Shown here: positions 37,264-59,982 of the stretch, in pieces
How the letters are laid out: each line of letters opens with the position of its first letter
How positions within the stretch are numbered: position 1 is the stretch's first letter
Source: Candidatus Nitrosomarinus catalina
GTDB taxonomy: Archaea > Thermoproteota > Nitrososphaeria > Nitrososphaerales > Nitrosopumilaceae
Assembly (NCBI RefSeq): GCF_002156965.1
Contig: NZ_CP021324.1
Span: 62,001-126,000, forward strand
Length of the DNA: 64,000 nucleotides
Direction: 5' to 3'
Notes under the pieces: generated by a model
The model's database searches: none
What the model saw: only the letters and a program-made list of their open reading frames with translations
Told to the model about the DNA's origin: nothing
Position numbers and translations under genes: made by a program

Positions 37264-37302
37264 CTGTTTACTAAATTCCCCACGGGGGTAAGTGTGAAAC
37301 AG
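37264..37302. promoter_or_regulatory. 39-base dyad symmetry between trmB and the Tes-family gene (candidate operator)
   Basis: The outer arms CTGTTT (37264-37269) and AAACAG (37297-37302) and the inner core CCCC-AC-GGGG (37278-37287) share the same centre, near 37283. The dyad ends 1-2 bases before the TATA box TTATATA (37304-37310), which serves the gene starting at ATG 37339, and lies 10 bases or so beyond the trmB TATA box. A factor bound here could control both divergent promoters. The G/C core stands out in AT-rich DNA. Confidence 0.6.
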
Positions 37303-37303
37303 A

Positions 37304-37310
37304 TTATATA
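37304..37310 (+). promoter_or_regulatory. TATA box for the Tes-family gene
   Basis: TTATATA is centred about 32 bases before the ATG at 37339, predicting a leader of only a few bases. It lies directly beside the dyad element. Confidence 0.65.
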
Positions 37311-37338
37311 CTGTTTTTTTAGAAATCTAAGTACAAGC

Positions 37339-39003
37339 ATGGCACTAATTCAGATTTCCAATCAATCAAGTAAGAATTTGGGTAAAAAATCTACTATCAG
37401 ATTTACTCAAAGTATCTGTCCTGATTGTAACATGATTTTAGATGCCGAAGTCTTTGAAAGAGATAATCAAGTTTTCATGTCAAAAATTTGTCCAACTCAC
37501 GGTGAATGTGAGGAATTATACTTTGGTTCTTATGAAATGTACAAAAAATTCAGTACTTACTGGATGGATGGCAAAGGTGCACATTCTCCAAATGTAATGA
37601 TTGACAAATGTTCTTGTCCAAATAACTGTGGTTTGTGTTCTAATCACTTATCTCACAGTGGATTAGCAAACATGATTGTAACTAACAGATGTGATTTGAC
37701 ATGCTGGTATTGTTTCTTCTATGTAAAGAAGGGACTTGAAGGCGCTTACATGTATGAACCAGATCATACACAAGTTAGAGGTATGATGAAGACTCTAAGA
37801 GCAGAAAGACCAATTCCAGGAAACTCTATGCAGATTACCGGTGGTGAACCAATGCTCAGAGATGATATTGCTGATGTTATTAAAATAATGAAAGAAGAAG
37901 GCGTTGACCATATTCAGATGAATACAAATGGTATTAGACATGCCATGGATCCTGAAGCAGCAAGAGAAGTTAGACTTGCTGGATGTAACAACTTGTATCT
38001 TTCCTTTGATGGTGTAACTGCAAGAACAAATCCTAAAAATCACTGGGAAATTCCATATGCTCTTGATAGTTGTAGAAAAACAGGTACTACTGTTGTATTT
38101 GTTCCAACTGTTATCAAATCAATTAACGATCATGAATTAGGCGGAATTATTAGATATGCACAAAAGAACATGGATGTAGTTCACGCTGTAAACTTCCAAC
38201 CAGTATCATTAACTGGTAGAATGGGTAAATCTGAACGTGAAAAATACAGAATTACAGTACCTGATTGTGTTCAAAGAATTGAAGAACAAACCAATGGTGA
38301 AGTAACTGTTGATGATTGGTTCCCAGTTCCAAGTTGTATGCCACTAACTAATGTAATTGAAGCATTCTCAAGCAAACCAAAATACGAATTGTCTATTCAC
38401 TTTGCTTGTGGTGCAGGAACTTACATCTTTGAAGATGCTGATACAAAGAAATTTGTCCCATTAACTAAATTCTGTGACATTCAAGGAATGTTAGAATTAT
38501 TTGAAGATAAATCTGAAGAGATTCGTTCTGGTAAGAACAAGTACTTTACAATGCTTGAAGTTGTAAGAAAACTCAAAGGCTTTGTTGATACTAAAAAGCA
38601 ACCAGCCGGATTAGATTTAGCAAAAATGTTTGGTAACATTCTCATGAAGAGATCATTTGATTCAGTTGGTTCATGGCACGTCAAAGGATTATTCCTTGGT
38701 ATGATGCACTTCCAAGACAAATACAATGAAGATTTAGAGAGATTACAAAGATGTGATATTCACTATGTTACTCCAGACCTTAGAATAGTCCCATTCTGTG
38801 CATTTAATGTAATTCCAGAATGGTACAGAGACAGAATTCAAAAGAAATATTCTATCACTGTAGAGGAATGGGAAGAACGTGAAGGTGTAAAACTCGAAGA
38901 TGGTCTATACAGAGGTCTTATGAGACGTGGTGCAGGCGATGAACTTGCTGCTGGCTGTGCAAAGAGTCAGATGTTCCATGATGCATCTCAAGCAACAATG
39001 TAG
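37339..39003 (+). CDS. tes: Radical SAM protein of the Tes/MJ0619 family (candidate tetraether lipid synthase)
   Basis: A 554-residue radical SAM enzyme from the ATG at 37339. It has an N-terminal cysteine region (SICPDCNMILDAEVF and KICPTHGECEEL) and a second cluster (CSCPNNCGLCSNHLSHS). The radical SAM core is NRCDLTCWYCFFY, with CxxxCxxC, followed by MQITGGEPMLRDD, and a further cysteine segment lies near SIHFACGAGTYIF. This layout of extra Fe-S sites matches the MJ0619 family, whose archaeal members include the glycerol tetraether synthase Tes that joins archaeol tails into GDGT lipids. The GDGT role is a family inference. The TrmB gene is divergent and AglB follows. Confidence 0.75.
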   Translation: MALIQISNQSSKNLGKKSTIRFTQSICPDCNMILDAEVFERDNQVFMSKICPTHGECEELYFGSYEMYKKFSTYWMDGKGAHSPNVMIDKCSCPNNCGLCSNHLSHSGLANMIVTNRCDLTCWYCFFYVKKGLEGAYMYEPDHTQVRGMMKTLRAERPIPGNSMQITGGEPMLRDDIADVIKIMKEEGVDHIQMNTNGIRHAMDPEAAREVRLAGCNNLYLSFDGVTARTNPKNHWEIPYALDSCRKTGTTVVFVPTVIKSINDHELGGIIRYAQKNMDVVHAVNFQPVSLTGRMGKSEREKYRITVPDCVQRIEEQTNGEVTVDDWFPVPSCMPLTNVIEAFSSKPKYELSIHFACGAGTYIFEDADTKKFVPLTKFCDIQGMLELFEDKSEEIRSGKNKYFTMLEVVRKLKGFVDTKKQPAGLDLAKMFGNILMKRSFDSVGSWHVKGLFLGMMHFQDKYNEDLERLQRCDIHYVTPDLRIVPFCAFNVIPEWYRDRIQKKYSITVEEWEEREGVKLEDGLYRGLMRRGAGDELAAGCAKSQMFHDASQATM

Positions 39004-41299: not shown

Positions 41300-42340
41300 T
41301 TATTTTTTTCCATTTATGCTAAAACCACTTTCAATTTCATTAAAATGAATAATTTTTAATTTAATATCTTTAAACCATTTTCTAACCTCGTTTTTTGAAT
41401 GTCTAAATGCAAATTTTGGATAGTACCAATCATAATTTGTAGCAACACTTTGTTCAAATGGAACATCTGGAGACCACCAACATTTAAGAAAATTCCAATA
41501 TAGAAATCTTTGAACATCATAGGTTCCTGCTTTAATTTCAAGTAGGGGAATATCTTCTTTGATTGTAATCTTTTTCTTTAATTGTGATAAACTCTTTCCT
41601 AAAAATGCCATACTTTTAGAAAATTCCATACATTGTTTTTCAGTCATGTTAATGGTAGTTTTTCTAATATGATCATCTGCAAATTCTCGCAATGCTCCTT
41701 TTTTTCTATATACATAAATCGAAATAATTCCATTTTTTACTAATAGTTTTGAAAGTATTTTGAATGAAGATTCTGTATCTTTAGTATGATGTAATACTTG
41801 ATCTGAACAAATAAAATCAAAAAAATTTTTTTTAAATGGCAATTTTCTTATGTCTGCTTGTAAAAAATGAATGTTCTTTATTTTACCATATTTTTTATAT
41901 GCAAATTCTATACTTTCACTAGCATCAATTCCAAAAACTTGAGCATTTGAGTTGGATGAAAATAATTTTGCACTATTTCCAACTCCAGTACCTGCATCAA
42001 GAATTGTAGAACGAGTTTCTAAGAATTTATTTAATTTTGAAATTGTTTTCCAACCAAATCTTTCTAAAAACCATTTTTTTTGACCATCAATCCATTTTTT
42101 ATTATGATAAGTTTTGTTAAAATGTCTCCATTTTGATGAGAATGCATCTTCGGTATTTACAAAATCTTTTTGTTTATCTATTACTAATCGAGGAATTCCT
42201 CTAATTATGGGGAAATTATGTTTTTTAAGGCACGTTAAAGTTCCTTGAATAATTTCTTCTTTTTGTTTTTTCTTTATTTTTAATGAAAATTTTGTCTTAC
42301 ATTCTGGACAAACAATTTGTTCAACTAATTTTGATTTCAA
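41300..42340 (-). CDS. SAM-dependent methyltransferase with Trm112-like N-terminus
   Basis: A 346-residue class I methyltransferase. The N-terminal zinc-ribbon-like part (VCPECKTKFSL ... GTLTCLKKHNFPIIRGIPRLV) resembles Trm112-type modules. The SAM motif is ILDAGTGVGNSAKLF (about residue 115-129), with FDFICSDQVLHHTKD further on. It starts at TTG. The substrate is unknown; its place at the start of the glycan island suggests a sugar or lipid. It is convergent with aglB. Confidence 0.85.
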   Translation of the reverse strand: MKSKLVEQIVCPECKTKFSLKIKKKQKEEIIQGTLTCLKKHNFPIIRGIPRLVIDKQKDFVNTEDAFSSKWRHFNKTYHNKKWIDGQKKWFLERFGWKTISKLNKFLETRSTILDAGTGVGNSAKLFSSNSNAQVFGIDASESIEFAYKKYGKIKNIHFLQADIRKLPFKKNFFDFICSDQVLHHTKDTESSFKILSKLLVKNGIISIYVYRKKGALREFADDHIRKTTINMTEKQCMEFSKSMAFLGKSLSQLKKKITIKEDIPLLEIKAGTYDVQRFLYWNFLKCWWSPDVPFEQSVATNYDWYYPKFAFRHSKNEVRKWFKDIKLKIIHFNEIESGFSINGKK

Positions 42341-42397
42341 TTATTACTATGATTTTTTGGGTAAATAAAAATTAGTTGCATTGGTGAATGGCATTTT

Positions 42398-43609
42398 TTA
42401 AATAGATAATTTTGTTTCTGGATTCATTTCTTTTGTAACAAAAATTCTATACCAAATTTCAAACGCTAATAATCCTAAAAATTTGTTAACATATCTAACA
42501 TCTGGTATTTCATCAAGTCTTTTAAGGTGTTTCTTAACCCAAATTCCATTAATCCATTTATCTTTAATAATTCGTGCATTATCTAAATAATAATTACAAA
42601 TTTCTTTACCGTATGAATTCCATAAATTAATAGTATTTACTGAAAAACCTTGCTTATTTGGTGTGATTAGGTCTGAAGAAATATGTTTAGATAAAATTTC
42701 TCGTAATGGAAGTTTTCCAATATTTTTATTTTGATTATATTTAATTGAATTTTTTAAATGTGGTGCATATTGCATTAATTCTTTTGATAAAATTGGTGTA
42801 ATTGGTTTAAGATCAAAGAAATTATGAAAACTAGTATTAAGTGGAATCCAGTTGTACAATAATTTTCCATTAATATCTGCTAAAAATACTTGATCTAGTG
42901 GAGATAACGAATTATCAAAATATGGAATAATTTTTGAATAAATTTCATCCCATGAGAAATTTGATTTTGACTCAAACAATTCAATTTGATCTGGAACCCA
43001 GTCACGTTCATGGCATTCTAAATATAATTTCACTCGATCTAAGGGACTCATATCTGAATAAAAATTTGATAAATATTTTTGATATCTGAAAGTGTATCCT
43101 CCAAATAATTCATCTCCACCATCACCTGACACTAAAGATGTTGAAAATTTTGAAGCAGTTTTTACCATGTGATACCAATGCGTATCCCAAAATGGCATTT
43201 TGATTATGCTAATTGCTTTTGGAAGAAATTCAAGAAAATTTTCAATTGAAATAATATTATGATCTGCATTAAACTTGTTTGCTATATTTCCTGCAATTCT
43301 TGTTTCATCAACACTATCTGCAAATTTTAGAGAAATGGCATCAATTTTGATATCTGGTTTAGTTTTACGAAGTAATGACATTACAAGAGTTGAATCAACT
43401 CCTCCACTTAGTGCAATTGAAACATGTTTGTCTTGAACTTCATTTTCTATTTTTAAGGAAATTGATTTTTCTATGTATTCTAAATAATTTAATTTTTCTT
43501 CAGGTAAAAAATTATTTGAAATAAATTTATTTTTATTATCGTCTATTGACGGAGAATATCTTAAAGTTAATACCTCTTTAATAATTGAAGAATAATTGTT
43601 AATTTCCAT
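42398..43609 (-). CDS. Asparagine-synthase-like amidotransferase without a glutaminase domain
   Basis: A 403-residue protein carrying only the synthetase (AsnB C-terminal) part. The PP-loop is VSIALSGGVDSTLVMSLLRK (about residues 63-82) and SLVSGDGGDELFGGYTFRYQ follows. The N-terminal class II glutaminase domain, with its essential Cys2, is absent, so ammonia must come from a partner or free pool. Its position suggests amide formation on a sugar acid, rather than asparagine synthesis. The gene diverges from the epimerase at 43706. Confidence 0.8.
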   Translation of the reverse strand: MEINNYSSIIKEVLTLRYSPSIDDNKNKFISNNFLPEEKLNYLEYIEKSISLKIENEVQDKHVSIALSGGVDSTLVMSLLRKTKPDIKIDAISLKFADSVDETRIAGNIANKFNADHNIISIENFLEFLPKAISIIKMPFWDTHWYHMVKTASKFSTSLVSGDGGDELFGGYTFRYQKYLSNFYSDMSPLDRVKLYLECHERDWVPDQIELFESKSNFSWDEIYSKIIPYFDNSLSPLDQVFLADINGKLLYNWIPLNTSFHNFFDLKPITPILSKELMQYAPHLKNSIKYNQNKNIGKLPLREILSKHISSDLITPNKQGFSVNTINLWNSYGKEICNYYLDNARIIKDKWINGIWVKKHLKRLDEIPDVRYVNKFLGLLAFEIWYRIFVTKEMNPETKLSI

Positions 43610-43676
43610 AATTTAATATCCAATTTTGTTCATAATTTTCCATGTTTATAAGATTCTATTTTGTTATTAGTTAAGA

Positions 43677-43683
43677 TTTAAAG
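43677..43683 (+). promoter_or_regulatory. TATA box for the epimerase at 43706
   Basis: TTTAAAG is centred 26 bases before the GTG at 43706. It supports GTG as the true start with a leaderless mRNA. Confidence 0.6.
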
Positions 43684-43705
43684 ATGTGTTAGATTCAACA
43701 AACAT

Positions 43706-44605
43706 GTGAAATTTGTTATTACTGGTGGTGCAGGATTCATTGGAAGTCATATTGCAAAACATTTAGTTGAAAAAAATCATGATGTTATAATAATAGATAA
43801 CCTCTCAAGAGGAAGATTAGAAAATTTATCTGAAATTAAAGAGCAAATTGAATTTAAAAAAATAGATATTTTAGATTTTAATTCGTTAAAAGATGTAGTT
43901 TCTAATTCTGATGGGATTTTTCATCAAGCAGCATTAACTTCTGTACCTGAATCATTTTTACAAAAAGAAAAATATCATAATGTGAATGTAAAAGGTACTG
44001 AAAACATATTCAAATTAGCTAAAGAATTTGGAAAAAAAGTTGTATATGCAAGTAGTTCAAGTGTTTATGGAAATACTACAACAATTCCCATTCAAGAAAA
44101 TTTTGAAAAAAATCCCATTAATCCATATGGAATAACAAAATTAGATGATGAAAAACTAGCACAAAAATATCATAATTTAGGAGTATCCATAATTGGTTTA
44201 AGATATTTTAATGTCTATGGGGTTGGTCAAACTAATGATTATGCTGGTGTAATTACAAAATTTATCAATCAAATTAATCTAAATGAATCCCCAATAATTT
44301 TTGGTGATGGATTACAGACTAGAGATTTCATATCTGTAGAGGACGTTGCTAAAGCAAATTTATCATCAATGGAAAGTAATACTGATTTCTCATTTTTGAA
44401 TATTGGGACAGGTATATCTACATCCGTTAAAACATTAGCAGAAATAATGATGGATCTTTCAGGAAAAACATTAGAATTAAGTTATGATGATTTACCACTA
44501 GGTGATGTAAAAGATAGTTTAGCTGATGTATCTCTTGCAAAACAATTGATTAATTGGAATTATGACACATTATTAAAAAATGGTTTAAAAAAATTCTTTT
44601 TTTAA
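43706..44605 (+). CDS. NAD-dependent sugar epimerase/dehydratase (UDP-glucose 4-epimerase-like)
   Basis: A 299-residue extended SDR. The Rossmann motif is VITGGAGFIGSHIAK (about residues 4-18) and the catalytic set is the Ser in ASSSSVYG with NPYGITKLDDEK (Tyr-x-x-x-Lys). SVEDVAKANL and LGDVKDSLADVSLAK are typical of GalE-type 4-epimerases. It is a little shorter than average GalE. The product would be a UDP-hexose for the island's glycan. It starts at GTG and overlaps the convergent glycosyltransferase by 4 bases. Confidence 0.92.
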   Translation: MKFVITGGAGFIGSHIAKHLVEKNHDVIIIDNLSRGRLENLSEIKEQIEFKKIDILDFNSLKDVVSNSDGIFHQAALTSVPESFLQKEKYHNVNVKGTENIFKLAKEFGKKVVYASSSSVYGNTTTIPIQENFEKNPINPYGITKLDDEKLAQKYHNLGVSIIGLRYFNVYGVGQTNDYAGVITKFINQINLNESPIIFGDGLQTRDFISVEDVAKANLSSMESNTDFSFLNIGTGISTSVKTLAEIMMDLSGKTLELSYDDLPLGDVKDSLADVSLAKQLINWNYDTLLKNGLKKFFF

Positions 44606-45552
44606 GATCTTTGTAAATCCTCATAAAATTTAACATATTTTGGAAGTAGAATTTCCCATGTAAGATTTTTCATTACAAATTCATAACCTGAATCTGCAAG
44701 TTTTTTTGAAGTTTCATCATCTAAAAGTAATTTGTTAATACTGCTCAATAACATTTTTGGATCATTAGGCGGAATTAAAATCCCTGTTTCATTATTTGTA
44801 ATTAGTTCTGGAATACCTCCTACATTTGTTGCAATGATTGGAATTTTAAGATAAAATGCTTCTTTAATTACTTGTGGAATACTTTCCATTCTTGATGGGA
44901 CTACTAGTATACTAGATGCTTTGAGATTTTCCATTGCTTTTTCCCATGTCATATCTGTACAATAGATTATTTTTGCATCAATTTTTGATTCGATTCCTCT
45001 TAGAATATCGATTCCTTTTTCATGACTATTTCTTCCAATGAATATTATTTGTTTTTCTTTTTTTTCTACATTTTTTAATTTTTCAAATTTTTTTATGTCT
45101 AAAGGAGCATAAAAAAATTCAAAATCTACATTCAATTTTTCTTTGTACATTTTTTTAACAATTTTAGAATCAGTTGTTAGTTTGTCAGCCCATTCTAGTA
45201 CTTTAGTTTCAGTAACTTTAGCAGCAGTAGAGATAGTTTTAGAATGTAATACATCCACTTGTTCAGAATAAACACCGTGAATGGATAAAACTTTTTTCTT
45301 TGCTTTTGTATATTTCATAGCAAAAGCTGATGGGACATTAAATGCATGAACAATATCATATTTTTCTGTCCCTACTATTGCTTTCAATGAACTAAATGCC
45401 GCAAAACTTGGATTTTTTAATTTTCTAATTGGAATGTGTGGTACATGCATTAATTTAATATCAAATCCATATTCTTGTAATTTTTCATAAACTCTAAATG
45501 CATGTCCTCCTATACCTCCAGAATATCTTGGAGCAATAAACAAAATTTTCAT
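44602..45552 (-). CDS. Glycosyltransferase family 4 (GT-B)
   Basis: A 316-residue GT4 enzyme. It begins MKILFIAPRYSGGIGGHAFRV, the acceptor-side glycine loop of GT-B enzymes. The donor-side loop is IIFIGRNSHEKGIDILRG followed by the E-x7-E motif VVPSRMESIPQVIKEAFYLKIP. Such enzymes add a hexose from UDP or GDP sugar. Substrate is unknown. The size is slightly short for GT4. Confidence 0.9.
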   Translation of the reverse strand: MKILFIAPRYSGGIGGHAFRVYEKLQEYGFDIKLMHVPHIPIRKLKNPSFAAFSSLKAIVGTEKYDIVHAFNVPSAFAMKYTKAKKKVLSIHGVYSEQVDVLHSKTISTAAKVTETKVLEWADKLTTDSKIVKKMYKEKLNVDFEFFYAPLDIKKFEKLKNVEKKEKQIIFIGRNSHEKGIDILRGIESKIDAKIIYCTDMTWEKAMENLKASSILVVPSRMESIPQVIKEAFYLKIPIIATNVGGIPELITNNETGILIPPNDPKMLLSSINKLLLDDETSKKLADSGYEFVMKNLTWEILLPKYVKFYEDLQRS

Positions 45553-45685
45553 TTCTTACATAAATATTAAAATTCTTGCCTTAATGAATTTGTTCAGAAT
45601 AAAAGTAGTAAATCATATAATCCAAATTAATAATACTATTTTCTATAGTAATAATAATATCTATGAGTAATTAAATTGAAATTAG

Positions 45686-46756
45686 ATGAAAGTTGCAGTA
45701 ATTTTAGGAACAAGACCAGAAATTATCAAACTTGCACCTATTATCAAACAACTAAATAAAAAATCTACTTCTGTAATATTTACTGGTCAGCACTATGATC
45801 ATAATATGGGCATGAGATTTATTGATCAACTTGGTTTAAACAAACCAAATTATTCTATGAAAATCTCTAAAACAAAACCTGAATTACAAATTTCTGAAAT
45901 AATTAAAAAATTATCTAGTATTTTTGCAATAGAAAAACCTGAAAATGTAATTGTTCAAGGTGACACAAATACTGTTTTAGCAGCAGGAATTGCATCACTA
46001 AAATGTAACATTCCTATATCTCATGTTGAATCTGGATTACGTAGTAATGATTGGAGAATGCCAGAAGAACACAATAGAATTATTGTTGATAATTTTTCTG
46101 ATTATCTTTTTACTCCAACACAAATCACTAAACAAAATCTAATTTCAGAAAAAGTTCATGGAAAAATATTTGTTACTGGAAATACCGTAATTGATGCTAT
46201 AAATTTATTTTCTAAAATTTCAAAAAAATATTCAAAATTATCTTTAGATTATGATGATTACGTATTATTGACTTTACATAGATCTGAAAATGTAGATAAT
46301 AAATCAATTCTCTCATCTGTAATTAAATCAATTCTTGATTCAAATCAAAAATTTATTTTTCCTATTCATCCACGTACACAAAAAAGATTACACGAGTTTA
46401 ATTTATTCACAAAATTAAAAAATTCAAAAAATATTTTGACGCTTGATTCTGTTGGTTATTTTGAAATGTTGGAATTAATGAAAAATTGTCAATATATCGT
46501 AACTGATTCAGGAGGTATTCAAGAAGAAGCTACTGCATCATCAATTAAGAAAAAAGTAATTGTCGTACGTAAAACTACTGATAGACCTGAAGCTGTTTTA
46601 GGAGGTTTTTCTGAAATTGTAGGCACAAATTATAATAATATTTTGAAATCTCTAAAGAAAACTGCTAAAAATTCTTCAATTATTAAGAAAAAATCCCCTT
46701 ATGGTGATGGAAATTCTGCAAAGAGAATAATTCAACATTTGAAAAATAATCTGTAA
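45686..46756 (+). CDS. wecB: UDP-N-acetylglucosamine 2-epimerase (WecB-like)
   Basis: A 356-residue epimerase giving UDP-ManNAc. It has VILGTRPEIIKLAPII (about residues 5-20), FTGQHYDHNMG, VESGLRSNDWRMPEEHNRIIVD and SGGIQEEATASSIKKKVIVVRKTTDRPEA. Its product is the substrate of WecC, encoded at 49805 in this island. A truncated relative of this gene is left at 51402. It begins with ATG. Confidence 0.95.
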   Translation: MKVAVILGTRPEIIKLAPIIKQLNKKSTSVIFTGQHYDHNMGMRFIDQLGLNKPNYSMKISKTKPELQISEIIKKLSSIFAIEKPENVIVQGDTNTVLAAGIASLKCNIPISHVESGLRSNDWRMPEEHNRIIVDNFSDYLFTPTQITKQNLISEKVHGKIFVTGNTVIDAINLFSKISKKYSKLSLDYDDYVLLTLHRSENVDNKSILSSVIKSILDSNQKFIFPIHPRTQKRLHEFNLFTKLKNSKNILTLDSVGYFEMLELMKNCQYIVTDSGGIQEEATASSIKKKVIVVRKTTDRPEAVLGGFSEIVGTNYNNILKSLKKTAKNSSIIKKKSPYGDGNSAKRIIQHLKNNL

Positions 46757-46800
46757 TTTTATATCATTTAATAATACGATATTAATTTGAAAAATTATTA

Positions 46801-47484
46801 GTGAAAATTATGAAAGATAAGTATGATGATGAAGATTTACAAAGACTATATGATAAAACATATTTTTCAACTCGTTCACGACCACCAATGTGGATTAGAA
46901 GAGCAGAATTTATGCATGAAAAATTTCACCCTAAAACTGTTTTAGATGTTGGTTGTGCATATGGGGAGCTTGTAAAAGCACTTGTTGATATGGGGATTGA
47001 AGCATATGGGGTAGATGGTTCTGAATATGCAATCAATAATTCTGATTCATCAATTCGATCAAAATTATTTAAGGTAAATCTTAATTCTGATAAATTTCCA
47101 TTTAATGATAAAACATTTGATGTTGTTGGTAGTTTTTATTCTGTTGAACACATTCATGATATTAACTTTTTTGCAAAAGAACTGCAAAGAATTTTAAAAG
47201 ATGATGGCATTGCATGGTTTCTTACTCCAAATGAGGGATTAGAACAACGAAATGAAACTGATGTTTTTACTAATACGTTTGAAGAATGGAAAAAAATTTT
47301 TGAAGAAAGAGGATTTAAAGTAGCAAAATTTAGTCCACATGAAATGATGGCTCTTCGTGGTAAATTAGGAAAATTTAAATTTTATTTATTACCAAAATCT
47401 ATTCAAAATATAATTAAAAAAGTAGCTTATGATTATTCAAATAGAAAAATGAAGGATGCCTCATTCATTTTAACTAAAAATTAA
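46801..47484 (+). CDS. Class I SAM-dependent methyltransferase
   Basis: A 227-residue methyltransferase with the SAM motif VLDVGCAYGELVKALVD (about residues 45-61) and VVGSFYSVEHIHDINFF as motif II-III. The start may be the GTG at 46801 or an ATG three codons later. It probably methylates a sugar hydroxyl or a carboxyl in the island's glycan; this is from context. It overlaps the convergent glycosyltransferase by 11 bases at its 3' end. Confidence 0.85.
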   Translation: MKIMKDKYDDEDLQRLYDKTYFSTRSRPPMWIRRAEFMHEKFHPKTVLDVGCAYGELVKALVDMGIEAYGVDGSEYAINNSDSSIRSKLFKVNLNSDKFPFNDKTFDVVGSFYSVEHIHDINFFAKELQRILKDDGIAWFLTPNEGLEQRNETDVFTNTFEEWKKIFEERGFKVAKFSPHEMMALRGKLGKFKFYLLPKSIQNIIKKVAYDYSNRKMKDASFILTKN

Positions 47485-48619
47485 TTAATTGATATTCATT
47501 AATTATTGATTCAGCAACATTCTTCCAATCAAATTTTTGAACCATTTCATTTGAATTTTTGCCCATTTTATTTTGTAAATCATCATTTTTTAATATATGA
47601 ATAATCTTTTGCGCTAATTCCTTAGGATTTTTTACAACATATCCATTAACCTCATCTTTCAAAATATCCTCAGGAAGTGTTCCTTTCATGGCTAAAACTG
47701 GTAAAGATGATGCCATGTATTCCAGGACTTTGATCGGCAATGCCCCTTTTGTTACATCCGTACTTCTCAAAGGTCCAATTCCGATAGAACTTTTAGCTAG
47801 AAATTTGGGAATCTCTTCTCGTTGAACCCATCCTTTAAAAATAATATTTTTTGAAAGATTGTTTTTAGTAACAAATTCTTGTAATTTTGTAATTTCTGGT
47901 CCGTCTCCCAATAGCAGGAATTCCACATCATTAATCTCATCAATTACTTTTGATGCACAATCTATCAAAACATCTACTCCTCTATGGTGATACATTGCAC
48001 CCGAAAATATTACTCTTCTATTATTTTCTCTAGTATTATAAAATTTTTTTAAATCTGTTCCATTAGTTACAATAGAAATTCTATTCTTTGATACACTATA
48101 ATACTCGTTAACTAATTTTTTTGTAAATTCATTCATAACTAATACTTTATCTGCATTTTGTAAAGTTTTTGAATTATACATTTTTTCAATTCCTCTTTGA
48201 ATTTTTTTTATTCCTTTAGCTTTTTCATAAATTGCATCATCAATTTTTATTAAAACTGGTTTTTGCAATTCTTTTCCACATGCTACTGCTGCTTTGGGCA
48301 CTAAATGAAATGGATGAAAAATTGATAAAATAAAATCATAATTATTTTGTTTACCCAATTCAATTCCTTTTTTTTCCATATTATCTTGACATCTTCTAGC
48401 TGCAATTTTTAAATTTGATCTAAATGGTGTTTGAACTTTTTCTACAATTATTTTTTTATTTAATTGAGGCTCATATTTCTCACCTTTCCATTCTAAATCT
48501 GGTGTTAAAATGGTTACATCATGACCAAGTTCTGCAAATTTATTTGCTAATTCCACAATTACTACAACTCCCCCTCCACTTATGGGTGGAAAATGAAATA
48601 CCATAAAGAGAATTTGCAC
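47474..48619 (-). CDS. Glycosyltransferase family 4 (GT-B)
   Basis: A 382-residue GT4 enzyme if read from the GTG at 48619 (MQILFMVFHFPPISGGG). The donor-side region has VIFSGAMYHHRGVDVLIDCA and ELKEF-like GPEITKLQEFVTKNNL with the motif SSIGIGPLRSTDVTKGALPIKVLEYMASSLPVLAM. A longer frame to 48688 is unlikely because the divergent gene begins there. An ATG at 48604 would give a shorter alternative. It transfers an unknown sugar in glycan assembly. Confidence 0.88.
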   Translation of the reverse strand: MQILFMVFHFPPISGGGVVVIVELANKFAELGHDVTILTPDLEWKGEKYEPQLNKKIIVEKVQTPFRSNLKIAARRCQDNMEKKGIELGKQNNYDFILSIFHPFHLVPKAAVACGKELQKPVLIKIDDAIYEKAKGIKKIQRGIEKMYNSKTLQNADKVLVMNEFTKKLVNEYYSVSKNRISIVTNGTDLKKFYNTRENNRRVIFSGAMYHHRGVDVLIDCASKVIDEINDVEFLLLGDGPEITKLQEFVTKNNLSKNIIFKGWVQREEIPKFLAKSSIGIGPLRSTDVTKGALPIKVLEYMASSLPVLAMKGTLPEDILKDEVNGYVVKNPKELAQKIIHILKNDDLQNKMGKNSNEMVQKFDWKNVAESIINEYQLINF

Positions 48620-49798
48620 TGTGTTTATCTTTTTAAAGAAGCACAAAAATGTTATGCTAAGTTGACAAGTTCTTATGAAAAAACCCAAAATTGGTTAATG
48701 ACATCAGGACTTTTTGTTTCAGATGTAAATAATAAAAATTGTGGTGGTGTTCATTCTTTTTACGATGAAAAAGAAAATCAATATGGATTCCTATATCCTG
48801 AAATAACTGGTTATTTCATTAGTTGTCTTAGATTTTTAAATAATCAACACAATGATGAAATCTTTTCACAATATGCAAAATATTCTTCTAATTGGTTGAT
48901 CAAAATATATGAAAAATATGGTGCAATTATTCAAGGAATTGATTCTAATTCTAAAAATACTTTTTCATATTCTTTTGATTCTGCTATATGTGCAAAAGGA
49001 TTACTGGATTGTTATGAATTGAATAATGAAAAAAAATATTTAGATTATGGAGAACAAATTATGAATGATTTAATTGCTGAAGCTATAGGTTCTGATGGTT
49101 CTGTAAAACCTTTCAAAGATATTTCTACAAATAAATATCAAGAAAGCAATCAGGTTTGGTATAAACAAGAAGGATGTTTGCATATTAAAACAGCAATTCC
49201 TTTTTTTCAATCATATAAAATAACTACTGATGAAAAGCAATTAAAAATTGGAGAAAAAATTTGTAAAAAAATTAATACCTATCAAAATTCTGATGGATCC
49301 ATTAAATTACATATTAATTCACAAATCATTAATCTTCATACCTTATGCTATGCCTTGGAAGGATTACTATATGGTTTCTATGTGACTAATAATGAAGACT
49401 ATCATTACAGATGTGAAAGAGCTGTAGATTGGTGCTTAAATCAAATTAATGATGATGGAAGTATTTCACTATGGTTTAATTCAAAATATAAGAGCAAAGC
49501 GGCATACCCTATATCTCAACTTATTCGTATATTGATTTTACTAGATAAAATTAATAATAATTCCAAGTATAAACCTCAAACCAAAATTCTCTATGAATTT
49601 CTTAAGACACTACATGGGTTTCATTCTGATCCTAAAATTGATGGTGGTTTTTATGAAGAATACTACAAATCTCTTTTTGGTTGGAAAAAAAGAATGAGAT
49701 TGAATTCATGGACAACAATGTTTGCGTTACAAGGAATTAATTGGCTAGAAAATTATGATAGTGTTACATTTGAAAATACAATAAAATATCTGTATTAG
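48593..49798 (+). CDS. Alpha/alpha-toroid-like protein of unknown function in a glycan island
   Basis: A 401-residue largely helical protein with repeats of a Gly-containing turn: SDGSVKPF (about 172), SDGSIKLH (about 244) and DDGSISLW (about 290). Alternating helices plus aromatic-rich stretches (TSGLFVSDVNNKNCGGVHSFYDEK) suggest an (alpha/alpha)-barrel seen in glycoside hydrolases, epimerases and terpene cyclases. No catalytic motif is recognised. It could be a polysaccharide lyase or C5-epimerase; not proven. The ATG lies 26 bases inside the divergent glycosyltransferase 5' end, so a TTG near 48662 is an alternative start. Confidence 0.65.
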   Translation: MKYHKENLHCVYLFKEAQKCYAKLTSSYEKTQNWLMTSGLFVSDVNNKNCGGVHSFYDEKENQYGFLYPEITGYFISCLRFLNNQHNDEIFSQYAKYSSNWLIKIYEKYGAIIQGIDSNSKNTFSYSFDSAICAKGLLDCYELNNEKKYLDYGEQIMNDLIAEAIGSDGSVKPFKDISTNKYQESNQVWYKQEGCLHIKTAIPFFQSYKITTDEKQLKIGEKICKKINTYQNSDGSIKLHINSQIINLHTLCYALEGLLYGFYVTNNEDYHYRCERAVDWCLNQINDDGSISLWFNSKYKSKAAYPISQLIRILILLDKINNNSKYKPQTKILYEFLKTLHGFHSDPKIDGGFYEEYYKSLFGWKKRMRLNSWTTMFALQGINWLENYDSVTFENTIKYLY

Positions 49799-49804
49799 AA
49801 ATTT

Positions 49805-51157
49805 TTATTCACCTAAAAACTCTAAAATTGATTTAGAGTTAGATTCTTTTGAAATTTTGTGTTGACAATCATAGATTAAAGGAATTATACCTTGTCTGTA
49901 AATTTCTGATATACGTTCTTTAACGATATCATGATGCTGTACGATACATAAACATGAAATTCCTTTTAACTTTTCATTGTTTAGATTTTCTATTTTTTCA
50001 AAATTTAATTCATTAAGATTATTTTCTATTAGATATTTTTCAATTGACTCGTCACTGAAATATGGATCATATCCAAATACCTTAAAATCTTTCTTTTTTA
50101 AATCTGAAATAATTTTAAAACTAGCAGAATCTCTCATATCTTCTACATTGGATTTATACGATAAACCACATATTATGACTGATTTTTCAAAACCTTTTTG
50201 AGATAATGATTTTTCAACACTATTTGCAATATAATTTGGCATTTGTAAATTAATTTTTAAAGCATTTTCAATTGTTACAAAATTTGTTTGAAACTTTTTA
50301 GCTGATTCTAGCAAAAATCTTGGATCTTTAGGTATACAATGACCACCTGCTCCAGCTCCAGGATAATGTGGCATAAATCCAAAAGGTTTAGTTGCTGCTG
50401 CATCTATGACATCTTTTACATTTATTTTTAATTTGTCACATAACATTGCGAGTTCATTCACTAGTGAAATATTTACAAGACGGAATGTATTTTCAAATGA
50501 CTTTACAACTTCTGCAATTTTTGGTGAGTCTACTTTTAATAAATTTCCTTTGTTGATATGTTGATAAATTTTTTTAGATATTTCAAAACTTAATTCATCA
50601 GAACAATAAATAACTCTAGGAATATTTTCAATTCCCCATTCTTTATTTGCTGGATCTATACGTTCAGGACAAATACAAAGACCAAAATCTTTTCCAACTT
50701 TATAGCCTTTTGATTCAATAACTTTTTCTATTTTTTCTGTCGTTCCAACTTCCACACTACTTTCTAGAATAATTACATCTCCTGTTTTTGCATTTTCAAG
50801 AAAAGATTCTACAGCTGATTTTACAAAAACATCTGACTTGATGTTTTCATTTGGAATTGGTGTTGGAACACATATTATTCCTATTTTGGGAATTAATGAT
50901 TTCATTGGTTTTGTTTGTAATTCAATATTTTTTTGCTGTCTACATTTTCTATACTCGTCTTCCAAATGTATTTCTGAATCCATCAATTCATTATTTTTTA
51001 ATCTAGTAATTCTTTCTTCATTAAGATCTATTCCAATTACTTTAAAATTTGCTGTTGCTAATCTAACTGTGAGTGGAAATCCTACATAACCTAAACCATA
51101 AATTTCTATCAATATTGATTTTTCCTGAATTTCTTTTTTTGTATTTATTAATGACAT
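49805..51157 (-). CDS. wecC: UDP-N-acetyl-D-mannosamine dehydrogenase (WecC-like)
   Basis: A 450-residue nucleotide-sugar dehydrogenase (UDP-ManNAc to UDP-ManNAcA). The Rossmann motif is IYGLGYVGFPLTVRLA, the catalytic-Cys motif is GAGAGGHCIPKDPRF, and the C-terminal UDP-binding domain has VIICGLSYKSNVEDMRDSAS. The ATG at 51157 is chosen over one six codons upstream. It works with the WecB at 45686. Its promoter lies in the AT-rich gap to 51401. Confidence 0.92.
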   Translation of the reverse strand: MSLINTKKEIQEKSILIEIYGLGYVGFPLTVRLATANFKVIGIDLNEERITRLKNNELMDSEIHLEDEYRKCRQQKNIELQTKPMKSLIPKIGIICVPTPIPNENIKSDVFVKSAVESFLENAKTGDVIILESSVEVGTTEKIEKVIESKGYKVGKDFGLCICPERIDPANKEWGIENIPRVIYCSDELSFEISKKIYQHINKGNLLKVDSPKIAEVVKSFENTFRLVNISLVNELAMLCDKLKINVKDVIDAAATKPFGFMPHYPGAGAGGHCIPKDPRFLLESAKKFQTNFVTIENALKINLQMPNYIANSVEKSLSQKGFEKSVIICGLSYKSNVEDMRDSASFKIISDLKKKDFKVFGYDPYFSDESIEKYLIENNLNELNFEKIENLNNEKLKGISCLCIVQHHDIVKERISEIYRQGIIPLIYDCQHKISKESNSKSILEFLGE

Positions 51158-51401
51158 GATTTTACTTATTAGCATTTAATGCTTAACTATTTGTATTTTG
51201 GTACTGATTCAAATTAATTAAGTAATGTTCAAATCATTATTTTCTAACAATATGTTAAAAATGAGTATTGAAAATTCATTGTCTATTCAAAATACTATAT
51301 TTTTCAATTAAAATTAATCAAAATTAAAAAATTATGTCTAAATTACTTACTAATGATTAAACATAAAGCCAAAAATACCAAAGAAATTAAGATTTTTTAG
51401 A

Positions 51402-51566
51402 TTGAAAAATGTTACTGTAATGGGTACAAGACCTGAAATTATTAAATTAGCTCCTATAGTGGATAAACTTTCTTCAAAAAATCCTATCATTGATTCCAAC
51501 ATTTCCCCTTATGGTAAAAGAAAAGCTTCTGACAAAATTATTAATTTACATCAAAAGAATTTATGA
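51402..51566 (+). pseudogene. Remnant of a wecB-like gene with about 300 codons deleted in frame
   Basis: A 54-residue open frame from the TTG at 51402. The first part, NVTVMGTRPEIIKLAPIVDK, is the WecB N-terminus (compare VAVILGTRPEIIKLAPII in the intact gene at 45686). The last part, SPYGKRKASDKIINLH, is the WecB C-terminus (compare SPYGDGNSAKRIIQHL). Everything between, including all catalytic residues, is missing, but the frame is kept. It precedes the flippase gene by 15 bases. The 244-base stretch 51158-51401 upstream shows no other recognisable gene. Confidence 0.88.
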
Positions 51567-51581
51567 ATTGGAAATTGTATT

Positions 51582-53081
51582 ATGAGTAATATTCGTGTAA
51601 CATATTCAGGCTTAATTTCTCTTCTAGTTGGAATTGTAAGTACCATTACTGGATTAATTTTTACATTAATTGTTACTAGATCATTAACTCCTGATGAGTA
51701 TGGTTCATGGGGATTAATTGGAGGTTTAATTATGTATGTAATGATACTTGATCCAATTGTAACCTATTGGACAACTAGAGAAATTGCTAGAGGAGAAGAT
51801 TCTGGAAAAACCGCAATTATTACCCATGGATTATTTTCTTTAATTGCATTAATTTTATACATAATAATTGCATTTTTTGTTGCAAATGAAACTGTTGTTA
51901 CTTTTGACGTACTTGTTTTAGGTGCTATGTTAATACCTGTAATGTTTATCAATAGAGCTTTAACAGCATTAAATTTAGGATGGAAACCTCAAGCTACCAG
52001 TTATGGTATTATTACATTTGAATTAAGTAAAATTCCACTTGCATTAATTTTAGTATATCATTTTAACTTGGGATTGGAAGGTGCAATAATTTCAACAACA
52101 ATTTCTTATGTTGCTAGTATCATTATTTTATCTATTAATTCACGTTCAAAATTAAAAGTAAAATTTAAAACATTTTATATTAAAAAATGGACAAAATTCT
52201 TTTGGATTCCATTATATCGAAAAGGACAGAGTGTAGTCTTTAGTTTTGATGTTGCAATATTTGCAATAATTAGTGATTCTGTATTTGGAATTGCCTTGTT
52301 TAGTGCTTCATTGGCTGTATCTATTTTGGTAGGACATGCTGGATTAATTGCACAGGCAATTTATCCTAAATTACTTTCGGGTTCCAAAAAAAATTATTTG
52401 AATGAAAATTTAATCCGATTCTTTTATTTTGCATTTCCACTAACTGCTATTTCTATAGTTTTTGCACAACCTGCACTATTTGCACTAAATCCTGAGTATG
52501 AAATTGCTACAATCGTAGTGATAATAATGAGTATTCGTACATTTTTCTATGTATTGAGTAATATTTTTCAATCTGCTATTCATGGTGCTGAAACAATTGA
52601 TACTAAAGAAAATCCAAAATTTTCTGATTTTGTAAAAAGTAAATTATTCATACTTCCAACTATAATTTTAATCCAATATTCATTATATGTATCCATATTA
52701 GCTATTGTTCTATTTCTTACAAAAGATAATTCTACTCAATTAGAATTAGTGATTAATTGGGCTTTGATTTCATTAATAGTGCAGATTCCTTTTACAGCTT
52801 ATTTTTATAAAGTTACAAAAAAACAATTTTCCCTAAATCTTGATGTTATTACTACGATCAAATATTTATCTGCAAGTATTCTTGTTTTTAGTTTAACATA
52901 TTTTGTTACTGAAAATTTTTTAATTTATCAAGAAAGTATTTTTAATTTTCTACCCAATTTAGTTTTGTATGTTGGTTTAGGAGTTTTAATGTATGTAGGA
53001 TTAACATTTTTTATTGATAATAAAACAAAAATGTTGATCAAATCAATTATAGGAGAATTAAGGAAGAATTCTACATCTTAG
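51582..53081 (+). CDS. Polysaccharide flippase (Wzx/MATE-like, oligosaccharide exporter)
   Basis: A 499-residue membrane protein of the MVF/oligosaccharide flippase superfamily, with about 12-14 hydrophobic helices. The opening ISLLVGIVSTITGLIFTLIVTRSLTPDEYGSWGLIGG matches this family's first two helices. It would flip a lipid-linked glycan across the membrane toward AglB or other transferases. Its stop codon overlaps the next gene by 1 base. It starts at ATG 51582, right after the wecB remnant. Confidence 0.92.
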   Translation: MSNIRVTYSGLISLLVGIVSTITGLIFTLIVTRSLTPDEYGSWGLIGGLIMYVMILDPIVTYWTTREIARGEDSGKTAIITHGLFSLIALILYIIIAFFVANETVVTFDVLVLGAMLIPVMFINRALTALNLGWKPQATSYGIITFELSKIPLALILVYHFNLGLEGAIISTTISYVASIIILSINSRSKLKVKFKTFYIKKWTKFFWIPLYRKGQSVVFSFDVAIFAIISDSVFGIALFSASLAVSILVGHAGLIAQAIYPKLLSGSKKNYLNENLIRFFYFAFPLTAISIVFAQPALFALNPEYEIATIVVIIMSIRTFFYVLSNIFQSAIHGAETIDTKENPKFSDFVKSKLFILPTIILIQYSLYVSILAIVLFLTKDNSTQLELVINWALISLIVQIPFTAYFYKVTKKQFSLNLDVITTIKYLSASILVFSLTYFVTENFLIYQESIFNFLPNLVLYVGLGVLMYVGLTFFIDNKTKMLIKSIIGELRKNSTS

Positions 53082-57522: not shown

Positions 57523-57553
57523 ATTTAATAGATAAACACTAATTTTCTAATTG

Positions 57554-58510
57554 ATGAATTATAGAATTCTTCTGTCTGTTTTTATCGCTTTTTTCATAGT
57601 TTTTGGTTCCTTATTCTTTATTTTTTTTAATCCAATAACAGTTGAATCAAATATCAATCAATATCCAGCTTTTTCTTTAACTCTTGATAAAAAATCTCAA
57701 AATTTGTTTTTATTGGGTTCCAGTCATATTGGACATTTAAATTCAAGTTTAATTGTAAATTCTATCCATGAAAGTTATCCAAGTACTTCAATTTTTAATC
57801 TTGCAACAAACGGAGATACTCCTAATAGAAGAATTTCTGATCTTTCATACATTACAAATATGAATCCTGAATTTGTTTTCTATGGTGTTTCTTTTAGAGA
57901 TTTTAATTCTCCTAACCAATTTACTTCAAAATATTTTCTTCCTGATCTTAAATTATTAGTCGATCAATCTATTCCTGAGTCCCTTGAATCTTTAAATCCA
58001 CAATTTATTTCACGTACAATAATCAAAGATATTTTACAAAATTATGGTTTAATGGATGTATCCAAATATGATATTAATCCAACAAATACACCATTTTTCT
58101 CTCTAGGAAATTTACAAACAATAATTTTAGAAGAACCAGAATTAGAAAGATTGCTTTTAACTACTGATCCTTCTCCACAATCTCTTCACATTCCACTTTT
58201 TAATAATGATCAAGTCAATTCTTTTAAGAAAATTATTCAAGAATTAAATAATAATAATATTAAAGTGATAATTTTTACTGTACCAATACATGAACTTTAT
58301 TTAGATAATATTTCAACTGAAAATAAATTATCTTTTAATCAAATATTAAATGATATATCTGATGAATATGATGTTAAAATTTATAACTTTACAAATAACT
58401 ATTCACAATTAAAAATATGGAATAATCTTGATCATATTGCATATAATGAAAATTCTGACATATTTAGTAAGGACATATCAAAAATGATTTTAACGGAATT
58501 AAGAAAATAA
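57554..58510 (+). CDS. Membrane-anchored SGNH-like protein, partner of the MBOAT enzyme
   Basis: A 318-residue protein from ATG 57554. A single N-terminal membrane helix (ILLSVFIAFFIVFGSLFFIFF) anchors a domain facing outside. LFLLGSSHIGHLNSSL, near residue 55, resembles the SGNH/GDSL block I with its Ser. A late NNLDHIAYNEN resembles the block with the catalytic His, although the canonical Asp three residues before the His is Asn here. Partners of MBOAT acyltransferases (AlgJ/AlgX/PatB type) have such domains. Its stop overlaps the MBOAT start by 1 base. The domain call is moderately sure; activity is inferred. Confidence 0.65.
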   Translation: MNYRILLSVFIAFFIVFGSLFFIFFNPITVESNINQYPAFSLTLDKKSQNLFLLGSSHIGHLNSSLIVNSIHESYPSTSIFNLATNGDTPNRRISDLSYITNMNPEFVFYGVSFRDFNSPNQFTSKYFLPDLKLLVDQSIPESLESLNPQFISRTIIKDILQNYGLMDVSKYDINPTNTPFFSLGNLQTIILEEPELERLLLTTDPSPQSLHIPLFNNDQVNSFKKIIQELNNNNIKVIIFTVPIHELYLDNISTENKLSFNQILNDISDEYDVKIYNFTNNYSQLKIWNNLDHIAYNENSDIFSKDISKMILTELRK

Positions 58511-59982
58511 TGCTTTTTAATTCTTTAGAGTTTATTATTTTTTTTATTGTAATACTTACTACAATTTCAGCAATTAAAAATAGAAAATTTCAACATATTT
58601 TTTTATTAGTAATTAGTTATTTCTTTTTTTATTTTACAAGTAATTATTTAGTTACCCTATTAATTATTTCAACATTATTAGATTATTATTTAGGAAATAA
58701 AATTTGGAATGAAAATAATATAATTAAAAAGAAAATTTTTCTTATTTTCAGTTTAATTGGTAATTTAGGTTTATTGGGATTTTTTAAATATGCTGATTTT
58801 GCAATTGCGCAATTTAATATTTTTGGAACACACTTCAATCTAAATTCTGAAATACCACTACTTGATCTAATTTTGCCTATTGGAATTTCATTTTATACAT
58901 TCCAAACTATCAGCTATACTGTTGATATTTATCGTGGTCATCTTGAACCAAGTAAATCTTTTAGAGAATTTGCTCTATTTGTTGCATTTTTTCCACAGTT
59001 AGTTGCTGGACCAATTGTTAGAGCTAAAGATTTTCTTCCACAGCTTAGAGAAAAGTTAGATAATTTTAGCAGTGGTATAAAATTACGTCAAATTATTATT
59101 AACAATCAAAATTTGAAGTTGGGCATTACTATAATGGCATTTGGTTTTTTTAAAAAAATGTTTTTTGCTGATAATATTGCACCTTTGGTTGATGAAATTT
59201 TTATTAATCCTATTGGATTAGATTCATTCACTATAATTTTAGGAACTTTTGCATTTGGAATCCAAATTTATGGTGATTTTTCAGGATATTCTGATATTGC
59301 AATAGGTGCAGCATTAATTCTTGGATTTAAAATTCCAATTAATTTTAACAAACCATATTTTGCAATTTCTCCTTCTGATTTTTGGAGAAGATGGCATATT
59401 TCATTGTCTACATGGTTGAGAGATTATTTGTACATTCCATTAGGTGGAAATAAAAAATCATCTAGTAGAACTTATTTGAATTTATTCACTGTTATGTTCT
59501 TAGGGGGGTTATGGCATGGTGCGTCTTGGAATTTTGTAATTTGGGGAGTTTTACACGGAATGTATCTTGCTATTCACAAAATAATTTCTGATAAATTTCC
59601 TCATCTTAAAATTCATCCATTTTTTAAATCAAAAATTGGGAAAATTATTTCAATAGTTGTTACACAATATTTTGTATTTTTAGCATGGATTCCATTCCGT
59701 GCACATAATACTGATGACATGATGTATTCAATTCAGAAATATATTTTTATTGATTTTCAATTTGATAATGTTTTTAGTTTTGTATTGACACACAAATGGC
59801 CCCTATTGATAATGGGAATTTTTGTAATTTTACATATTTTCATGTATTTCAAACCTAATACTGTTTACAAGATATCTAAAATGAATTTAAAATATTGGAC
59901 AGTATTTTTAACATCTTTGTTATTTTTAGTAGTTTATTTTTATAATGGAAATTCTCAGGATTTTATTTATTTTAGATTTTAA
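58510..59982 (+). CDS. MBOAT-family O-acyltransferase (AlgI/DltB-like)
   Basis: A 490-residue membrane enzyme with roughly ten to twelve hydrophobic helices. The family core is clear: ILPIGISFYTFQTISYTVDIYRG, FFPQLVAGPIVRAKDFLPQL, FGDFSGYSDIAIG-like sequence and the invariant His in GGLWHGASWNFVIWGVLHG (about residue 337). In AlgI it carries acetyl groups across the membrane for alginate acetylation. The gene starts on the last base of the SGNH stop codon, so they are translationally coupled. It overlaps the convergent methyltransferase by 4 bases. Confidence 0.95.
   Translation: MLFNSLEFIIFFIVILTTISAIKNRKFQHIFLLVISYFFFYFTSNYLVTLLIISTLLDYYLGNKIWNENNIIKKKIFLIFSLIGNLGLLGFFKYADFAIAQFNIFGTHFNLNSEIPLLDLILPIGISFYTFQTISYTVDIYRGHLEPSKSFREFALFVAFFPQLVAGPIVRAKDFLPQLREKLDNFSSGIKLRQIIINNQNLKLGITIMAFGFFKKMFFADNIAPLVDEIFINPIGLDSFTIILGTFAFGIQIYGDFSGYSDIAIGAALILGFKIPINFNKPYFAISPSDFWRRWHISLSTWLRDYLYIPLGGNKKSSSRTYLNLFTVMFLGGLWHGASWNFVIWGVLHGMYLAIHKIISDKFPHLKIHPFFKSKIGKIISIVVTQYFVFLAWIPFRAHNTDDMMYSIQKYIFIDFQFDNVFSFVLTHKWPLLIMGIFVILHIFMYFKPNTVYKISKMNLKYWTVFLTSLLFLVVYFYNGNSQDFIYFRF

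Follow-up and report, generated by a model that had tools for sequence, protein, structure and literature searches.

Prokaryotic pseudogenes with internal deletions between short direct repeats are a general known kind. We compared such remnants with a short frame resembling both ends of wecB, the gene for non-hydrolyzing UDP-GlcNAc 2-epimerase (WecB; TIGR00236, PF02350). UDP-GlcNAc 2-epimerase is among the glycosylation proteins of Nitrosopumilus piranensis (PMC12153357); its passages on these proteins do not mention relics, and a literature search on O-antigen remnants found nothing. The window analyzed here is a stretch of 64,000 nucleotides, positions 62001-126000 of the single-contig 1.36-Mb genome of the ammonia-oxidizing archaeon Candidatus Nitrosomarinus catalina. 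It contains, internal to the contig, a forward-strand frame of 54 codons that runs from TTG to TGA (51402-51566). This frame is very probably the non-functional remnant of a second wecB that underwent one internal deletion in a cell-surface glycan island (Table 1).

Table 1. The wecB relic and its neighboring genes, in window coordinates.
Feature	Position	Strand	Remarks
Intact wecB, 356 aa	45686..46756	+	Slot conserved in relatives; TIGR00236 E 2.7e-104
Nucleotide-sugar dehydrogenase, UDP-ManNAc dehydrogenase-like (wecC)	49805..51175	-	End of conserved block
5' part of wecB relic, 27 codons	51402..51482	+	Corresponds to WecB residues 1-27; start TTG
Inferred join, AAA AAT (Lys-Asn)	51477..51482	+	Hexamer at both ends of intact homologues
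3' part of wecB relic, last 27 WecB codons	51483..51566	+	SPYGKRKAS...; TGA stop
Flippase-like protein, MOP superfamily	51582..53081	+	Starts 15 nt after relic stop

Both halves of the relic were similar to WecB. The N half matched the NCBIfam wecB model TIGR00236 (residues 1-39 to model positions 1-38, E 1.1e-8) and gave gap-free alignments with residues 1-27 of many WecBs. Identities numbered 16/27 for the WecB of the window (BLASTP E 4e-9, in a single comparison) and 19/27 for each of those from relatives G006, G034 and G229. The N-terminal GTRPEIIK segment of WecB (TIGR00236/PF02350) is present. At 34.6 bits, against a curated cut-off of 210, the relic missed the TIGR00236 family threshold, and a Pfam search of the relic gave no match. 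The C half resembled the window's own WecB weakly (BLASTP, 13/32, E 0.005) and was best matched by the end of the G098 protein (17/29 columns), followed by those of G034 and G126 (14 columns) and of G006 and three others (13 columns). From the join onwards, its DNA was 71.6% identical to that of G098 across 81 nt. The PYG of the C-terminal PYGxG motif is kept, and the second Gly, found in 22/22 homologues, is Arg. No shuffle of either half reached the real score against WecB ends (0/5000) or whole WecBs (0/2000), in a test with eight WecBs from a 22-member comparison set that held only proteins above 43% identity to the WecB of the window and above 330 aa in length.

The two ends of the relic are homologous to opposite ends of a single gene, with order and strand preserved. 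They matched both ends of the same 356-aa protein in G034 and in G006, and a search of the genus found G006, G034, G057 and G082 each matching at both ends of one frame of 356-369 aa. The initial annotation had described about 22 residues from each end of WecB fused in a 54-codon frame; BLASTP, TIGR00236 and the shuffles uphold the fusion, with about 27 residues on each side instead. A lack of WecB similarity in an alignment search, which it had named as part of a refutation, was not seen, both ends being similar to WecB and no shuffle as good. Compared with WecB, the relic shares 27 homologous residues per end, among them the start motif GTRPEIIKLAPI and the end motif PYG, but lacks the whole middle, roughly 302 of 356 residues. 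It holds 54 of about 356 residues and falls short of the full-length, two-domain form. With so much gone, the predicted product cannot be an enzyme of the WecB family.

We located the join by comparing DNA homology on its two sides. N-side homology extends to nt 81 of the relic frame (in G082) and C-side homology begins at nt 79 (in G098), and their overlap corresponds to the codons AAA AAT (Lys-Asn). Among eight intact genes displayed, AAA AAT stood at the aligned N-side codons in two and at the C-side codons in three; G006 had it in both places, with the phase unchanged. By a looser test, AAAAAT occurred in both end regions of 8 of the 22 intact homologues, the other 14 not showing that pattern. 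Since the window is 71.5% A+T and the hexamer is common at such composition, a repeat-mediated deletion is plausible and the repeat itself suggestive only. The position of the join and the repeat are those read from homologues of limited identity, not from the parent gene.

The relic lacks 302 codons of the 356-aa homologues. In the simplest reading, one internal deletion of about 906 bp would have joined codon 27 to codon 329 (356-aa homologue numbering), by slippage or illegitimate recombination at the 6-bp repeat. An in-frame fusion could have arisen without selection, considering that a random deletion keeps the frame one time in three and that the two Lys-Asn codons are in phase by chance. 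The earlier suggestion of a deletion between short repeats fits the shared AAA AAT at the join, which is present at both aligned places in G006, and the in-frame loss of about 302 codons, while the use of the repeat is no more than plausible. The loss may have been tolerated with the intact wecB at 45686 supplying UDP-ManNAc to the neighboring dehydrogenase, and the flippase behind the relic would have retained transcription.

The relic is extra to the wecB of the conserved slot. That intact gene, previously placed 5.7 kb away, lies at this distance by its start, and its end is only 4.6 kb from the relic. The slot, between GT44 and GT47 and with or without MT46, is the same in G006, G034, G056 and G057, as well as in G229, G126 and G098, the contigs of the last two ending within the block. 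The possibility that the relic is a recent duplicate of the neighboring wecB was rejected, as only 1 of 2000 column bootstraps placed that gene nearest to it. G098 was nearest in 870 and G034 in 495, and a median of 13 of the 22 homologues were closer to the relic than the intact wecB of the window.

At the relic site, the conserved block comes to an end and variable gene content begins. In the five relatives whose wecB-to-wecC block is complete, no wecB occurs past wecC; a GT54 homologue follows directly in four of them, and another frame comes first in G057. The flippase-like protein on the other side (AlphaFold2 pLDDT 87.7, from a 14-sequence alignment) had MurJ, MATE and WzxE as its best Foldseek matches (best E 7.0e-7), and Pfam Polysacc_synt was found in 4 of the 14 aligned sequences. 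Of 34 relatives with a flippase match, we checked the neighbors in 29, leaving out G027, G245, G079, G111 and G114. No wecB of the relic's subfamily lay within 1.5 kb either side of the flippase in these 29 loci. In G106 and G032 the flippase has next to it a wecB from a different subfamily (about 36% identical), and one locus, L132, showed weak partial WecB-like matches (E 0.003) on a glycosyltransferase-like frame. A separate search of genome contigs with the flippase as query found no relative. Since even the nearest relatives of the window flippase are only about 52% identical, the absence of wecB neither proves nor refutes a former full wecB at the site.

The 226 bp before the relic gave, besides the self-match, only short blastn matches of at most 57 bases, and a six-frame blastp search returned only the relic's own WecB matches. 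The join sequence had no match in viral contigs. Between 51150 and 51650, a scan with bacterial-type promoter models, which do not cover archaeal promoters, gave 6 hits against a shuffle mean of 4.3, no excess, and a bacterial-type terminator scan gave none. A full wecB at the same position in relatives, which the initial annotation had proposed to look for, was not found in any of the five with the block. Its proposal that the island once carried a second wecB beside the flippase and was rearranged agrees with the extra relic and the recombined island; that the full gene once stood exactly at this site, next to the window flippase, is what we infer.

We compared the island with those of seven relatives, in which the G034 MTase41 fell outside the compared stretch and its asnB was cut by the edge. 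Genes between 41300 and 45552 (MTase41, asnB, galE43 and GT44) were closest to G006 (86, 80, 79 and 80%), while those between 45686 and 49798 (wecB, MT46, GT47 and gene 48) were closest to G034 (78, 86, 74 and 73%). This mosaic pattern suggests that a block within 41300-49798 may have been replaced by recombination. Several other genes of the region were recorded. The radical SAM protein at 37294-39003 carries an HMPTM-type zinc ribbon; it is 91-99% identical in relatives' loci, where it recurs at the edges of the variable islands. The conserved island gene at 48593-49798 has weak Pfam similarity to the C-terminus of glucuronyl C5-epimerase and to GH88. An MBOAT acyltransferase (PF03062) follows a DUF1574-like protein at 57551-59982, possibly a glycan O-acylation pair.

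The mosaic raises another explanation of the relic, a scar of module exchange in which recombination joined the 5' end of one wecB to the 3' end of another. This would suit a site at the end of the conserved block, an island with left genes nearest G006 and right genes nearest G034, and a GT54 that is on the plus strand and farther off in the window but on the minus strand directly behind wecC in four relatives. However, the nearest relatives of the two halves overlap (G098, G034, G006 and G229), so that two parents are unneeded, and 54 columns are too few to resolve parentage. We regard such an exchange as unlikely.

A micro-protein or leader frame, for example one coupling translation of the flippase, would be expected to stay in frame and open, as the relic does, and to end close to the flippase start, which lies 15 nt downstream of the relic stop. 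Most of the conserved end residues are also still present, as a functional peptide would likewise show. We searched 250 genomes of the family with the 54 residues as query and found matches in 27 (E <= 0.001). Among the matches listed, 28 of the 30 places besides the relic were in frames of at least 349 aa, the exceptions being G116, near a contig end, and a broken gene in G182. Apart from this contig-end piece and broken copy, no other short WecB-end frame was found in the 250 genomes. In a search of 95 genomes of the genus with the WecB profile, short fragments that matched the beginning or the bulk of the profile were limited to the relic and two G044 pieces, one of which reaches a contig end while the other, on a different contig, carries the complementary part. 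Larger frames that encode other proteins also gave weak partial matches to the profile (in G053, G079, G037, G001, G056, G031 and G036).

Of 14 positions common to at least 21 of the 22 homologues, the relic is altered at two (I20V and G342R), which indicates that constraint has probably been lost and that the relic is young. The probability that the frame stays open after 6-10 random substitutions is 0.68-0.55; since it is likely to be open by chance at such low decay, its openness says little. The peptide model, made from the single sequence, was of low confidence (pLDDT 69.5, pTM 0.30). The lack of similar mini-frames in the family, the replaced invariant Gly342, the poor fold and an open frame expected by chance argue against the selection for a small peptide that had been suggested earlier, and a retained micro-protein or leader is very unlikely. 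We give equally little credence to the fusion having been selected as a short translated leader linking expression of the flippase module to the former start signals of wecB; if this were true, the enzyme would be gone and its translation signal retained. From its sequence, we judge the relic to be an ordinary, fairly young pseudogene remnant.

That the C half is a chance resemblance or the frame a misassembly of two pieces is extremely improbable: the C half bears only a weak resemblance to the WecB of the window, but it matches many homologues, outscores all 5000 shuffles and has a DNA-level match in G098, and the site is internal to a single-contig genome.

A second case of wecB loss was found in G182, which belongs to another genus of the family. 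There, a wecB stops after about 75 codons (L145:1701-1940); its start is frame-broken, and no 3' remainder was found. Its island contains GT44-like, GT47, gene 48, GT54, FemAB and flippase genes, and a different contig carries an intact wecB, 83% identical over the remaining codons. Considering that the G182 break is independent of the relic, redundant wecB copies have been lost in such islands at least twice. The relic is one of these two losses and not a new system, a small trace of turnover in archaeal surface-glycan islands, which shed redundant sugar genes at the meeting points of modules. It also calls for caution in annotation, as a strong WecB start does not make a frame of 54 codons an enzyme.

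The truncated G182 gene resembles the relic in being a broken wecB within a comparable glycan island of a genome that also has an intact copy. It differs in what is kept, about 75 codons of 5' sequence whose start is broken and no 3' part, and in lying in the conserved wecB slot. As in prokaryotic pseudogenes that arose by internal deletion between short direct repeats, the relic has kept both ends and lost the middle, and there may be a short identical stretch at the join. It differs from them in that its reading frame happens to stay open.
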